NCBI RefSeq assembly: GCF_900110455.1
Contig: NZ_FOIS01000004.1
Coordinates: 558,001-622,000, forward strand
From: Natrinema salifodinae
Lineage (GTDB): Archaea > Halobacteriota > Halobacteria > Halobacteriales > Natrialbaceae
Direction of reading: 5' to 3'
DNA: 64,000 nt
Positions 6,409-13,124 of this stretch are shown here, piece by piece. The position numbers and the translations under genes are program-made. Position 1 is the stretch's first letter. Every line of letters begins with the position of its first letter. The notes below the pieces were generated by a model. It was given only the letters and a program-made list of their open reading frames with translations, made no database searches and was not told the DNA's origin.

Positions 6409-6435
6409 CCCCCACCCCTTCGTTTCGACTGGAGA
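6409..6435 (-). repeat. Origin Recognition Box A
   Basis: On the minus strand it reads TCTCCAGTCGAAACGAAGGG followed by GTGGGGG. This matches the haloarchaeal ORB form TCCASTYGAAA-N4-GGGG bound by Orc1/Cdc6. The G-run points left, away from the AT-rich core. Confidence 0.85.
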
Positions 6436-6749: not shown

Positions 6750-6777
6750 GCTCCACTTGAAACGAAGGGGTGGGGGG
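6750..6777 (+). repeat. Origin Recognition Box C
   Basis: GCTCCACTTGAAACGAAGGG followed by GTGGGGGG is a strong plus-strand ORB. It is nearly a mirror image of box A, including the GGGGTGGGGG tail. Its G-run points right, so A and C form an inverted pair around the AT-rich core. A second G/C-rich run on the opposite strand (CCCCCTCCCCCTC, 6728-6740) lies just to its left. Confidence 0.85.
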
Positions 6778-7456: not shown

Positions 7457-7482
7457 TGTTCCACTCGAAATAAGGGGGTTCG
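7457..7482 (+). repeat. Origin Recognition Box D at the orc1 start
   Basis: TGTTCCACTCGAAATAAGGG followed by GGTTCG is a canonical plus-strand ORB ending 10 bp before the orc1 ATG. Its position makes it a likely site for Orc1 to control its own expression as well as to bind the origin. Confidence 0.85.
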
Positions 7483-7492
7483 TATACGACGA

Positions 7493-9292
7493 ATGTCAGA
7501 CGACGACTCAGAGATCGCGGGTTCGGACGAGGTGGAGATCGGCGGATCGAACGGATTCTCGACGAACTTCGAGAACGCGGGGCTCGGCGACGGCGACGAG
7601 GAGTCGAATCAAGGACTGTTCGACGACCTGCTCAGCGGCGAACCGATTTTCGAGAACAAGGAGGTTCTCCGCCCGTCGTACACGCCACACGAACTCCCCC
7701 ACCGAAGCGATCAGATCAACAAGATGGCGACGATCCTCGTCGCCGCGCTCCGCGGTGAGACCCCCTCGAACATCCTCATCTACGGGAAGACCGGGACCGG
7801 CAAGACGGCGAGCGCGAAGTTCGTCAGCAAGGAACTCGAGAGCACCTCCCAGAAGTACAGCGTCCCGTGCGACGTCGAATACATCAACTGCGAGGTCACC
7901 GATACCCAGTACCGCGTGCTCGCACAGCTCGCGAACAAGTTCATCGAGAAGAACGAAGCCCGAATCGACGAGCAGATCGACGAACTCGAGTCGCTGTTAG
8001 CCGCCCTCGACGAGTACGAACCGATCGACGCCGACACCCAGCGTGACTCCGTAAGCGACCAGGCGAATCGATCGCGATCGGACACCAACACGGCGTCGGA
8101 CCCCTTCGATTTCGTTGCCGCGGACGAACCGGAGTCCAAATCTCACGTTTCGACTGAAGACAGTACCAGGCCGCAGTCGGGCGATTCTCCACTCGAAACT
8201 GGGGGGTCGGACCCTGACGGGCCGGCTACCGCGGGCGAAATCGACTCGCCGGAGGCCGACGATACCGGCCGGACCGCCGACGCCACCGTCGTGGCCGACG
8301 ACTCGACCGCCCTGCCGTCGGACCATCCCCTCGAATCGACGCCGTTCGACGACCGGGCCGAGGTCGAAGACCGAATCGCGGACCTAGAGGATGACAAGGA
8401 GTCCTTCGAGGAGGTCCCGATGACCGGCTGGCCGACCGACCGGGTCTACAGCGTCTTCTTCGATGCCGTCGATTACGACGAGCGGGTCGTCGTCATTATG
8501 TTAGACGAAATCGACAAACTCGTCGAGAAAAGCGGCGACGACACGCTCTACAATCTCTCGCGGATGAACTCCGAACTCGAGAACTCGCGCGTGTCGATCA
8601 TCGGTATCTCGAACGACCTGAAGTTCACCGACTTTCTCGATCCCCGGGTCAAGTCCTCGCTGGGCGAGGAGGAGATCGTCTTCCCGCCCTACGACGCGAA
8701 CCAACTGCGAGACATCCTCGAACACCGTTCGGAGGTCGCGTTCAAAGGCAGCGCCCTCTCCGAAGACGTCATTCCGCTGTGTGCGGCCTTCGCCGCCCAG
8801 GAACACGGCGACGCGCGCCGCGCGCTGGACTTACTCCGGACCGCCGGTGAACTGGCCGAGCGGTCTCAGTCCGAGACGATCGTCGAGGAACACGTCCGCC
8901 AGGCGCAGGACAAGATCGAACTCGACCGGGTCGTCGAGGTCGTCCGCACGCTCCCCACGCAGAGCAAACTCGTGCTCTTCGCGATCATCCTACTCGAGAA
9001 AAACGGCGTCCACAGCATCAACACGGGCGAAGTGTTCAACATCTACAAGCGCCTCTGTGAAGAGATCGACGCCGACGTCCTGACCCAGCGGCGCGTGACG
9101 GACCTCATCAGCGAACTCGACATGCTCGGAATCGTCAACGCCGTCGTCGTCTCGAAGGGCCGGTACGGCCGGACCAAGGAAATCAGCCTCTCGGTGCCCC
9201 TCGAGGAGACGGAGGCGGTCCTCCTCTCGGACTCGCGACTCAGCGACATCGACGACATCCAGCCGTTCGTCCAGGCGCGGTTCGAGAACTGA
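7493..9292 (+). CDS. orc1: Orc1/Cdc6 replication initiator
   Basis: This 599-residue AAA+ initiator binds ORBs and loads the MCM helicase. Walker A GKTGTGKT is at residues 98-105; Walker B (VVVIMLDEIDKL) has its Asp-Glu at about 338-339; sensor 1 (IIGISNDLKF) and DPRVKSSL follow. A C-terminal winged-helix DNA-binding domain covers about 490-599. Family members are commonly about 400 residues. The extra length is an acidic, Ser/Thr/Asp-rich insertion of about 150 residues (about 155-305) between Walker A and Walker B. An ORB-like sequence is embedded in the codons of that insertion (8185-8210). The gene is adjacent to oriC and ORB D abuts its start, suggesting autoregulation. Confidence 0.95.
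   Translation: MSDDDSEIAGSDEVEIGGSNGFSTNFENAGLGDGDEESNQGLFDDLLSGEPIFENKEVLRPSYTPHELPHRSDQINKMATILVAALRGETPSNILIYGKTGTGKTASAKFVSKELESTSQKYSVPCDVEYINCEVTDTQYRVLAQLANKFIEKNEARIDEQIDELESLLAALDEYEPIDADTQRDSVSDQANRSRSDTNTASDPFDFVAADEPESKSHVSTEDSTRPQSGDSPLETGGSDPDGPATAGEIDSPEADDTGRTADATVVADDSTALPSDHPLESTPFDDRAEVEDRIADLEDDKESFEEVPMTGWPTDRVYSVFFDAVDYDERVVVIMLDEIDKLVEKSGDDTLYNLSRMNSELENSRVSIIGISNDLKFTDFLDPRVKSSLGEEEIVFPPYDANQLRDILEHRSEVAFKGSALSEDVIPLCAAFAAQEHGDARRALDLLRTAGELAERSQSETIVEEHVRQAQDKIELDRVVEVVRTLPTQSKLVLFAIILLEKNGVHSINTGEVFNIYKRLCEEIDADVLTQRRVTDLISELDMLGIVNAVVVSKGRYGRTKEISLSVPLEETEAVLLSDSRLSDIDDIQPFVQARFEN
8185..8210 (+). repeat. ORB-like element E inside orc1 coding sequence
   Basis: TTCTCCACTCGAAACTGGGG followed by GGTCGG matches the ORB pattern fully. 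It encodes part of SPLETGGSD at about residues 232-239, in the disordered insertion of Orc1. It is in the same orientation as ORB D. Confidence 0.75.
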
Positions 9293-9442: not shown

Positions 9443-10456
9443 TCAGCGAGGGCCGGTTCGACGGCGACCGAGGGCGACGACGGCACCGCCACTGATACTG
9501 GCGCCGGTTGCGGCGATTCCGGCCGCACCGGCGAGTTCTCCGTCAGATCCGAGTTCGGCCCCGAGTCCGGCGGCGGCGGGACCGGTCGCTGCCGGTGCCG
9601 AGGTCGCTGCCGGATCGGACAACATCGGGTCGTAGAGCGCCGAACCCGCGGGCGAGGTCGGGGCGAGCATTCCGCCGAGGATCTGATCGAAGGTCAGTCG
9701 GACGTGGCCGAGCCACGGAATTCGGAACATCGCCTTGCCGGTGACCCACTCGGGTTTGACGACGGTGCTGACCGAGTTACCGTACTGATCGTACCCGGCG
9801 TTGTTGTCGCCTTTCGTGACGAATCCGTCGTGCGGGGCGGGGCAGGACTGGACCTCGGCACAGGTCGCATCGCCGATGACCTCTTCGTTGGCCTTGGTCT
9901 CGACCCATCTCTCGTCCTCCTCGACCCAGAAGTGGGCCCGGTGGATCACCGGCGTCGCGGCCGCGTTGCCGTTCGGCTGGAACACGATGACGTCACCCGG
10001 ATTATTGAACTTCTCGTGGCCGCTCTCCTGGCCGTTCTCGAGGGTGACGACGCCGGTTCCGTCGGCGGGATTATCGCCGACGAATCTGCCCTCGTCGGCG
10101 ACGAAGACGAGATCGCCCCTGTGCATGTGCGGCTCCATACTACCGCTCTCGACGGCGACCAGCGGCGGCCAGATCCCGCTGACCGCGAACAGGACGAGCC
10201 CGATGATCGCGACGATCGCGACGCTGCTCAGGACGTCCCGAACCAGCACGATGCTTTCGTCGTCCGTCTTGAGGAACCAGCGGACGATCCCGTCGTCTTC
10301 GATCGTCACGGCGTTCGATTCTGTCGAAGACGAAGATGCCGCCCCCGCTGGCCGCTCTCCCGGCGTTCGGGCCCCGTCGGTGCTTCGATCCTGCCGATTC
10401 CGGTCGTCCCCGGAATCGCCGTCGCCAGGCGGCTGCCCGGAGCTAGAACCGCTCAT
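9443..10456 (-). CDS. sec11: archaeal signal peptidase I (S26, Sec11 type), copy A
   Basis: This 337-residue membrane protease removes signal peptides on the outer face of the membrane. A disordered N terminus is followed by a membrane helix (SVAIVAIIGLVLFAVSGIW). Next come the catalytic Ser box ESGSMEPHMHRGDLVFV, the His box PVIHRAHF (His replaces the bacterial Lys) and the Asp box VTKGDNNAGYDQY, so all three archaeal catalytic residues are present. A second hydrophobic Ala/Gly-rich segment lies near the C terminus. ATG at 10456 is preferred to GTG at 10462. The ATCAACCTTC promoter word lies exactly 26 bp upstream, as in the neighbouring paralogue. A Sec11 gene beside orc1 and polB is a conserved haloarchaeal arrangement. 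Confidence 0.9.
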   Translation of the reverse strand: MSGSSSGQPPGDGDSGDDRNRQDRSTDGARTPGERPAGAASSSSTESNAVTIEDDGIVRWFLKTDDESIVLVRDVLSSVAIVAIIGLVLFAVSGIWPPLVAVESGSMEPHMHRGDLVFVADEGRFVGDNPADGTGVVTLENGQESGHEKFNNPGDVIVFQPNGNAAATPVIHRAHFWVEEDERWVETKANEEVIGDATCAEVQSCPAPHDGFVTKGDNNAGYDQYGNSVSTVVKPEWVTGKAMFRIPWLGHVRLTFDQILGGMLAPTSPAGSALYDPMLSDPAATSAPAATGPAAAGLGAELGSDGELAGAAGIAATGASISGGAVVALGRRRTGPR

Positions 10457-10482
10457 CGTCACCCGTTTTGCCGGGCCGGGAA

Positions 10483-10569: not shown

Positions 10570-11454
10570 CTACGGCTTCCGCGCTCCGGCGGCCGCGAAC
10601 AGGACGAGCGCGAACGCCCCCGACGCGACCAGGACGGCGGCCGATCCGACGCCGGACAGCGCGCGTATCGAATCGAACGCCAGGCGGAGTTCGCCGAGGT
10701 GTGGGACGCGGAGCATCGCCTTGCCGGTGACCCACTCGGGTTTGACGACGGTGGTCTCCGCGCCCGACCGCGGGAGTTGATCGTACGCGCGGTTGGCGTC
10801 GCCTTTCGTGACGAAGCCGTCGTGGGGGGCCGGACACGACGCGATGTCGGCACAGGTCGCGCCGTTCATGGCGGCGGGATCGGCCTTGGTCTCGACCCAG
10901 TTTTCGTCCGCCTCGACCCAGAAGTGGGCCCGATGGATCACCGACGTTGCCGTCGGATCGCCGTTCGGGACGAAGACGACGACGTCGCCGGCGAGCCCGA
11001 ACCGCTCGTGGTCGGTCTCCCGTCCGTCTGCGAGGGTGACGACGCCCGTTCCCGCGATCGCGTCCTCGTCGGCGAACCGCCCCTCGTCGACGATGAAGAC
11101 GAGATCGCTCTGCGAGATGTGCGGTTCCATGCTGCCGCTCTCGACGGCGACCAGCGGCGGCCACCCGCCGCTGATCGCGAACAGAAGGAGGCCGACGACC
11201 GCGACGATGGCGACGCTCGTCGCGACGTCGCGAACGGCGGCGATCGGTCCGCCGTCCGCCTCGCGGAGCCAGCGCACCGGGCCGTCCTCGATCGCGACTC
11301 GGCCGCGGTCGCGCGCGTCGGCGGCGGTTCGCGGACCGGCGTCGGGCGCCGAACCGGGATCGCCGTGCCGGTCCGACGGCGCCCAGTCGGAACCGCGGCG
11401 CCCATCCCGCGGAGCGGACCGATCGCGCGTTCGTTCACCGTCGGGACCGTCCAT
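10570..11454 (-). CDS. archaeal signal peptidase I (S26, Sec11 type), copy B
   Basis: This 294-residue paralogue of copy A lies immediately upstream on the same strand, 113 bp away. A membrane helix (SVAIVAVVGLLLFAISGGW) is followed by the Ser box ESGSMEPHISQSDLVFI, the His box SVIHRAHF and the Asp box VTKGDANRAYDQ. The catalytic set is intact. A C-terminal hydrophobic segment (GSAAVLVASGAFALVLFAAAG) could be a second membrane anchor. The stretches VESGSMEPH, CPAPHDGFVTKGD and TVVKPEWVTGKAM are shared with copy A, pointing to a fairly recent tandem duplication. The N-terminal tails differ completely. It probably has its own promoter (11481-11490). Confidence 0.9.
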   Translation of the reverse strand: MDGPDGERTRDRSAPRDGRRGSDWAPSDRHGDPGSAPDAGPRTAADARDRGRVAIEDGPVRWLREADGGPIAAVRDVATSVAIVAVVGLLLFAISGGWPPLVAVESGSMEPHISQSDLVFIVDEGRFADEDAIAGTGVVTLADGRETDHERFGLAGDVVVFVPNGDPTATSVIHRAHFWVEADENWVETKADPAAMNGATCADIASCPAPHDGFVTKGDANRAYDQLPRSGAETTVVKPEWVTGKAMLRVPHLGELRLAFDSIRALSGVGSAAVLVASGAFALVLFAAAGARKP

Positions 11455-11567: not shown

Positions 11568-13124
11568 GTGCCACTCGAGGCCTCCGCTCGGATCGTCAGC
11601 GAACTCACGACCCGCGGGTACAACGCCGAGCGCGAGGCGGTGACGAAACTCGCGGCGGCCGAGGACCCGCACGCGGCGCTCGAGCGCGTTCTCGAGAACG
11701 TCCCCGACGATGTCCTGGTCGTCCGCGCCGATCACGTGGCGGCCGCGCTGCCGGCCGACGGTACCGGTACCGCCGCCCGATCCGACGCCCCTGCCGATTC
11801 CGAATCGACCCCCTCCACTTCGACTGGAACTGACGCGACCCCGGGGCGGGAATCGACAGAGTCGTCTCCAGTTGAAACGGAGGGGTCGTCGCACGTCGAC
11901 CGAGCCGCCGACCCCGACCTCCGATCGCTCGAGATCATCGGCGACATGACGGGCCAGAGCACGGGAACCGGCGAGTACGAGGACTTCGTTTCCGTCTTCC
12001 GCGACCGCCTCGACCGACTCGGCTCGAAGCTTCGGGGGCGGGTCAACCACCGGCCGGCCTCCGCCATCGAGGACATGCCTGGCGGCAGCGACGTCGCCAT
12101 GGTCGGCCTGGTCAACGACATCCGGTCGACCGCCAGCGGCCACTGGCTGATCGAACTCGAGGACGCGACCGGGACCTTCCCCTGGCTCGTGATGAAAGAT
12201 CGGGAGTACGTCGATCTCGTCGACGAACTCCTCTGTGACGAGGTGCTGGCGATGGAAGGGACCCTCGCGGACGACTCGGGGATCGCCTTCGTCGACTCGA
12301 TGTACTTCCCCGACGTGCCTCGGACGTACGAGCCCTCGACCGCGGACCGCCACGTCCAGGCCGCGCTGATCAGCGACGTCCACGTCGGCAGCGAGGAATT
12401 CATGGCCGACGCCTGGGACCGCTTCGCCGACTGGCTTCACACCGACCAGGCCCGCCACGTCGAGTACCTCCTGATCGGCGGCGACATGGTCGAGGGCGTC
12501 GGCGTCTACCCCGACCAGGACGAGGAACTCGACATCGTCGACATCTACGAGCAGTACGAGGCGTTCAACGAACACCTGAAGAAGGTCCCCGGCGACCTCG
12601 AGATCGTCATGATCCCGGGGAACCACGACGCCGTCCGACTCGCGGAACCCCAACCCGGCTTCGACGAGGAACTCCGGGAGATCATGTCCGCGCACGACCC
12701 GCGGATCGTGAGCAACCCCTCGACGGTGACGATCGAGGGCGTTTCGGTGCTGATGTACCACGGCGTCTCCCTGGACGAGGTGATCGCGGAACTGCCCGAG
12801 GAGAAGGCCAGCTACGACGACCCCCACAAGGCGATGTACCAGCTCTTAAAGAAGCGCCACGTCGCGCCGCAGTTCGGGGGCCACACGCGACTCGCGCCCG
12901 AAGAGGAGGACTATCTGGTGATGGAGGAGGTACCCGACATCTTCCACACCGGCCACGTCCACAAGCTCGGATTCGGGAAGTACCACAACGTGCTCGCGAT
13001 CAACTCCGGCTGTTGGCAGGCCCAGACCGACTTCCAGAAGAGCGTCAACATCGATCCTGACGCCGGCTACGCGCCCATCGTCGATCTGGATACGCTGGAC
13101 GTGACGGTCCAGAAGTTCTCCTAA
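11568..13124 (+). CDS. polB: DNA polymerase D (Pol II) small subunit DP1
   Basis: This roughly 518-residue subunit of the archaeal replicative polymerase PolD carries the proofreading 3'-5' exonuclease. An N-terminal helical domain (about 1-60) is followed by a disordered acidic linker (about 62-125). Next come an OB-fold (about 150-235, AMVGLVNDIRSTASGHWLIELEDATGTFPWLV) and a calcineurin-type phosphoesterase domain. The metal motifs are LISDVHVGS, GGDMVEGVG, IPGNHD, MYHG and HTGHVHKLG. I start at GTG 11568, not an upstream ATG. VPLEASARIVSEL is the family N terminus, and a CCTTTTG element lies about 30 bp upstream. Two ORB-like sites lie in the linker codons. Confidence 0.93.
   Translation: MPLEASARIVSELTTRGYNAEREAVTKLAAAEDPHAALERVLENVPDDVLVVRADHVAAALPADGTGTAARSDAPADSESTPSTSTGTDATPGRESTESSPVETEGSSHVDRAADPDLRSLEIIGDMTGQSTGTGEYEDFVSVFRDRLDRLGSKLRGRVNHRPASAIEDMPGGSDVAMVGLVNDIRSTASGHWLIELEDATGTFPWLVMKDREYVDLVDELLCDEVLAMEGTLADDSGIAFVDSMYFPDVPRTYEPSTADRHVQAALISDVHVGSEEFMADAWDRFADWLHTDQARHVEYLLIGGDMVEGVGVYPDQDEELDIVDIYEQYEAFNEHLKKVPGDLEIVMIPGNHDAVRLAEPQPGFDEELREIMSAHDPRIVSNPSTVTIEGVSVLMYHGVSLDEVIAELPEEKASYDDPHKAMYQLLKKRHVAPQFGGHTRLAPEEEDYLVMEEVPDIFHTGHVHKLGFGKYHNVLAINSGCWQAQTDFQKSVNIDPDAGYAPIVDLDTLDVTVQKFS
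11807..11832 (-). repeat. ORB-like element F inside polB
   Basis: On the minus strand it reads AGTTCCAGTCGAAGTGGAGG followed by GGGTCG. The match to the ORB pattern is good (GAAG for GAAA). It lies in codons of the disordered linker of DP1, with the G-run pointing left. Confidence 0.65.
11863..11888 (+). repeat. ORB-like element G inside polB
   Basis: CGTCTCCAGTTGAAACGGAG followed by GGGTCG is a full ORB match on the plus strand. It is about 30 bp from element F and in the opposite orientation. It encodes SPVETEGSS, resembling the ORB-encoded SPLETGGSD of Orc1. Confidence 0.75.

Follow-up and report, generated by a model that had tools for sequence, protein, structure and literature searches.

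An inverted pair of origin recognition boxes at a near-fixed spacing within the polymerase D small-subunit gene of haloarchaea

How archaea keep initiation in check at oriC1 is largely open. Origin recognition boxes (ORBs) normally mark the replication origin, and the question raised by this locus is why two of them lie inside the gene for the small subunit of DNA polymerase D (DP1) in Natrinema salifodinae. The window analyzed is a 64,000-nucleotide stretch of the genome that contains oriC1, orc1, and DP1. An earlier note on the window had described an inverted, outward-facing ORB pair within codons for the disordered DP1 linker, and had inferred selection on the DNA. The pair it described is real. 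The features are listed in Table 1.

Table 1. Positions of the ORBs and associated genes. Positions are those of the window unless a genome handle is given (G, genome; C, contig; L, locus; G000 is the genome under study).
Feature	Position	Strand	Description
ORB F	11810..11827	-	In the DP1 linker; CCAGTCGAAGTGGAGGGG, 2 mismatches to the oriC1 ORB pattern; G-string points left (outward); perfect in most relatives; wobble bases of the aligned codons fixed
Spacer	11828..11867	.	40 bp between the two ORB cores; length conserved, sequence largely not; GC-rich; low column information apart from the flanking bases of the boxes
ORB G	11868..11885	+	In the DP1 linker; CCAGTTGAAACGGAGGGG, exact match; G-string points right (outward)
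DP1 (polD1/polB)	11568..13124	+	Small subunit of DNA polymerase D; open frame from 11541, start probably GTG at 11568; NCBIfam NF003116, 990 bits over a cut-off of 425; PF04042 and Metallophos; conserved columns begin at V10/P11
DP1 linker codons	11760..11975	+	Low-complexity linker between the N-terminal helical domain and the OB domain, holding the ORB pair; length variable in relatives
oriC1 left ORB	6415..6432	-	Exact match
oriC1 right ORB	6753..6770	+	Exact match; 338 bp start to start from the left ORB; flanks AT-rich DNA
orc1	7493..9292	+	oriC1-adjacent initiator gene, presumed binder of all these boxes; NCBIfam NF001625, 651 bits; Cdc6_C and Cdc6_lid
orc1 leader box	7461..7478	+	ORB-like, 2 mismatches; starts 32 bp before the orc1 start codon
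orc1 linker ORB	8189..8206	+	Inside the orc1 linker; 1 mismatch
Signal peptidase genes	9443-10462 and 10570-11454		Two tandem genes, about 75-79% identical in DNA, between orc1 and DP1
tRNA-Gln spacer ORB	G000:C4:536698-536715 (L151:8698-8715)	-	Single exact ORB between a tRNA-Gln gene and a rhodanese-like lipoprotein gene, 27.7 kb from oriC1

The oriC1 ORB pattern, CCASTNGAAACNNAGGGG, has the core CCASTNGAAAC followed by the halophile G-string. The two DP1 boxes are 58 bp apart start to start, and the distance between their 18-mer cores is longer than the roughly 30 bp given in the earlier note. The encoded peptides, SPVETEGSS in DP1 and SPLETGGSD in Orc1, are as the note gave them. Allowing up to 3 mismatches, the window has 15 matches against 2.4 expected, and 0 of 100 shuffles reach 15. 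F is the weaker arm in this particular genome, while both arms are perfect or nearly so in most relatives. The linker assignment draws only weakly on an AlphaFold model of poor quality (mean pLDDT 50), in which residues 74-152 are modeled as coil with pLDDT below 50.

A comparable ORB density in random genes had been named in advance as grounds for discarding the interpretation, and pattern searches of whole genomes do not show one. The 4.27-Mb genome has four exact matches, which are the two oriC1 boxes, G, and the tRNA-Gln spacer box. Across 29 genomes of the genus, almost all exact hits fall at oriC1, orc1, DP1, or that spacer, and the backward-read control gives 0 in every genome. The same tRNA-Gln context was seen in 14 of 17 genomes of the genus examined (relatives L285-L302). 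In three of the genomes (G053, G055, and G056; L287-L289), an exact ORB lies 46-61 kb from DP1 in a different context from the tRNA-Gln site.

The note had also named loss of the motif in close relatives as refuting, but the motif is kept. DP1 regions were taken from about 100 family members and 80 named haloarchaeal records, giving 142 unique DP1 genes. Of these, 138 have a pair within 4+4 mismatches in the linker, with 126 at exactly 58 bp, 8 at 55, 2 at 76, 1 at 79, and 1 at 70. An equal stretch of the gene core gives none in 142. Within-gene synonymous shuffles give no pair with a total mismatch of 2 or less in 1420 trials, against 104 of 142 observed. Sequence relatedness means that these counts are not independent events, and thinning to 57 representatives below 85% identity was the only correction applied, in the codon comparison described below. 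A strict two-box pattern hits 133 of 392 genomes of the order, once per genome except for one genome with two DP1 copies, with zero control hits. Although spacings of 55-61 bp were allowed, all listed pairs are at 58 or 55 bp, and the listed members of one family (f8) are all at 55. Where matches of the related pattern in haloarchaea were mapped, all but one of 21 lay in DP1.

The pair is weak or missing in some lineages (parts of families f2, f4, f5, f7, and f41, and genus g11) and is therefore not indispensable. Haloferax pairs are degenerate, with about 3+3 mismatches, though still at 58 bp. Of 30 genomes picked because they lacked the strict pattern, 19 still show a degenerate pair with a total mismatch of 4 or less to the relaxed box CCANNNGAAACNNNGGGG, 18 of them at 58 bp and one at 55. 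In genus g11 (L103-L105), an inverted ORB pair of oriC-like spacing sits 2-3 kb downstream of DP1, and the DP1 pair is degenerate. Presence of the pair as an ancestral trait of the phylum was considered and rejected, as the DP1 genes of 30 non-haloarchaeal members show no pair. The one strict non-haloarchaeal pair found (L253) lies in the region upstream of orc1.

The core inference of the earlier note, that selection acts on DNA rather than protein, is strongly supported, and by better evidence than the peptide resemblance on which the note relied. In the codon alignment, the wobble base demanded by the ORB is nearly fixed where codon usage of the gene itself predicts otherwise. The GAA codon in G is present in 142 of 142 genes (expected 43.5), A after CC (the CCA-type third base in G) in 140 (16.3), T at the codon before it in 140 across eight amino acids (17.3), GTT-type T in 140 (14.5), ACT-type T in 139 (13.2), and GGA-type A in 136 (18.2). 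The pattern is the same in the 57 representatives. The linker length before F takes 39 distinct values and that after G takes 19, while the distance between F and G takes 3.

These results bear on the possibility that SPVETEGS and PSVSTG are short linear motifs of DP1 and that the DNA match is a by-product. The encoded peptides are conserved in frame. However, rare codons are fixed, the wobble base is kept through up to 8-9 amino acids at a site, the same motif encodes different peptides on the two strands, and the box also occurs in the non-coding oriC1 and tRNA spacers. A protein-level constraint is refuted as the main cause by the codon evidence and is considered highly improbable. An RNA hairpin or DNA cruciform formed by the inverted arms is considered equally improbable. 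The single strand folds better than shuffles (z -2.8), but the arms do not co-vary, with 17.33 identical positions against 17.36 when shuffled, and single unpaired boxes of the same sequence are conserved elsewhere.

Concerning INDEPENDENCE from oriC1, a by-product of closeness to the origin is ruled out by genomes in which the two are separated. In G060 and G061, the oriC1 boxes lie about 156-157 kb from DP1, with a perfect DP1 pair. In these two genomes (G060:C1:3308348 and G061:C1:1885604), the oriC1 boxes lie about 156-161 kb from orc1, which stays next to DP1, so the origin is apparently separated from its initiator gene. In G040, G102, G105, G111, G114, and G117, orc1 lies about 19-193 kb from DP1, and the pair is kept within 0-2 mismatches in total.

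Of the three functions offered in the earlier note, a secondary origin is disfavored, and with it the related possibility of an MCM-loading site, a miniature origin. The DP1 boxes share the inverted, outward polarity of the oriC1 pair. However, the spacer has a mean GC of 0.63, against 0.67 in the flanks, with no AT-rich unwinding element. The pair is inside a gene and can be far from orc1, rather than intergenic and directly next to orc/cdc6 as at haloarchaeal oriC1 (PMC3528665, PMC4010727). The oriC1 pairs of relatives (L052-L231) are mostly about 300-340 bp apart, and their spacings cluster at about 272, 305, 317, 327, and 338 bp, or roughly one helical turn apart (best period 10.9 bp). In Haloarcula, an ORB-rich region alone had no replication activity (PMC3936714). 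Autonomous replication and marker frequency were not measured for the DP1 pair, and the miniature-origin reading was set aside as very unlikely.

Titration of the initiator and coupling of polymerase expression to it remain possible. The DP1 boxes lie outside the replicator, as do those of Haloarcula hispanica oriC2D, a region downstream of cdc6E that is proposed to restrain initiation by binding the initiator (PMC3936714). That region has 11 ORBs in 722 bp of intergenic DNA and is specific to oriC2/Cdc6E. The DP1 element has two intragenic, oriC1-type boxes of fixed geometry, conserved across the class. A pure sink, in which boxes only lower free Orc1 and geometry is irrelevant, follows the known logic of oriC2D but is considered unlikely, since two boxes are few, only a handful of strong boxes exist per genome, and simple titration does not explain a spacing that is conserved while flanking linker lengths drift.

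In the expression-coupling reading, Orc1 bound about 200-420 nt inside the gene would act as a transcription roadblock or intragenic operator, so that PolD small-subunit output follows Orc1 occupancy, and the orc1 leader box would autoregulate orc1 in the same way. The pair always stays in DP1, even when DP1 is far from oriC1. A box within 2 mismatches is present before the orc1 start in 87 of 130 unique orc1 loci, mostly at the same offset, and is a candidate autoregulatory site. Against this reading, the distance from the start codon varies widely (39 distinct values, 212-419 nt), and a single box would serve as a roadblock, leaving the near-fixed pair unexplained. A sigma-70 promoter scan is uninformative for archaea. 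Expression coupling is regarded as the strongest of the alternatives, though unlikely.

The boxes could instead be read by another Orc/Cdc6 paralogue, of which haloarchaea carry many (PMC3528665), or by another DNA-binding protein that shares the motif. This is considered very unlikely, since the sequence equals oriC1 boxes, and ORB sequences are reported to be specific to the adjacent initiator family (PMC3528665).

The preferred explanation is an intragenic, non-origin Orc1-binding module. The analysis itself shows that the boxes match oriC1 boxes and that they are conserved as DNA and as a pair across the haloarchaea, independently of distance to oriC1. That the pair is real and selected as DNA is held with very high confidence. 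Binding by Orc1 is inferred from the sequence identity with oriC1 boxes, and is held with high confidence, although no binding, expression, or replication data were found for this element in the literature read, and none were generated here. An Orc monomer binds one ORB with polarity, with the AAA+ domain on the G-string and the winged helix on the rest (PMC7776575). In this view, the module would seat two Orc1 molecules with winged helices inward, in one preferred relative position, without opening DNA. The rarer spacings of 76 and 79 bp equal 55 and 58 plus 21 bp, or two helical turns, though this rests on very few lineages. Near-fixed geometry without an unwinding element fits a regulatory nucleoprotein complex better than a sink or a roadblock.

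The least certain part, and with it the explanation as a whole, is tentative. It holds that this complex controls the initiator rather than starting replication, by holding it or changing its ATP/ADP state as the DP1 gene is duplicated, as one element of an oriC1-wide set of Orc1 sites (oriC1 pair, orc1 leader, orc1 linker, DP1 pair, and tRNA-Gln spacer). The model for this is Escherichia coli datA and DARS, DnaA-box loci away from oriC where initiator assembly changes the nucleotide state of the initiator (PMC4245941). The comparison is an analogy only, as the initiators are unrelated, no IHF or Fis involvement was examined, and effects of deletion on initiation or initiator nucleotide state were not assayed. 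A further reading, not excluded but doubtful, is that haloarchaea possess a dedicated chromosomal element, hidden in the coding sequence of a replicative polymerase subunit, where two Orc1 initiators are assembled in a fixed geometry distinct from the origin to reset or inactivate them, as an archaeal counterpart of datA/DARS that is possibly ancient. Such a counterpart would be of high interest if it exists.

The suggestion of antiquity comes from the Thermococcales. An ORB and mini-ORBs within DP1, near orc1/cdc6 and oriC, were mentioned in one sentence for four Thermococcales, with no function given (2008, PMC2643942, citing Matsunaga et al. 2007). Thermococcales DP1 sequences were not part of the comparison, and pairing, fixed spacing, DNA-level selection, common ancestry, and position in the gene were not examined for them. 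The haloarchaeal element is a rigid inverted pair in the linker. No report of this pair, its fixed spacing, or DNA-level selection on it was found in full-text literature searches, which did not cover most subscription papers, so its novelty is provisional. The element is a non-origin Orc1-site pair conserved across most haloarchaeal families, under demonstrable DNA-level selection inside a replicative polymerase gene. It also shows dual coding of protein and initiator site, and gives a possible reason for the long-noted linkage of the orc1 and DP1 genes.

A search of plasmids with the DP1 linker found nothing. The ORB inside the orc1 linker is present within 2 mismatches in 80 of 130 unique orc1 genes, in the same codon phase in 79 of 80, with GAA in 79 of 79. 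This is a second intragenic ORB that looks under DNA selection. In four genomes of one non-haloarchaeal family (f11; L255:3372, L256:3350, L262:3185, and L264:3022), an ORB-like box lies about 300-420 bp downstream of DP1.
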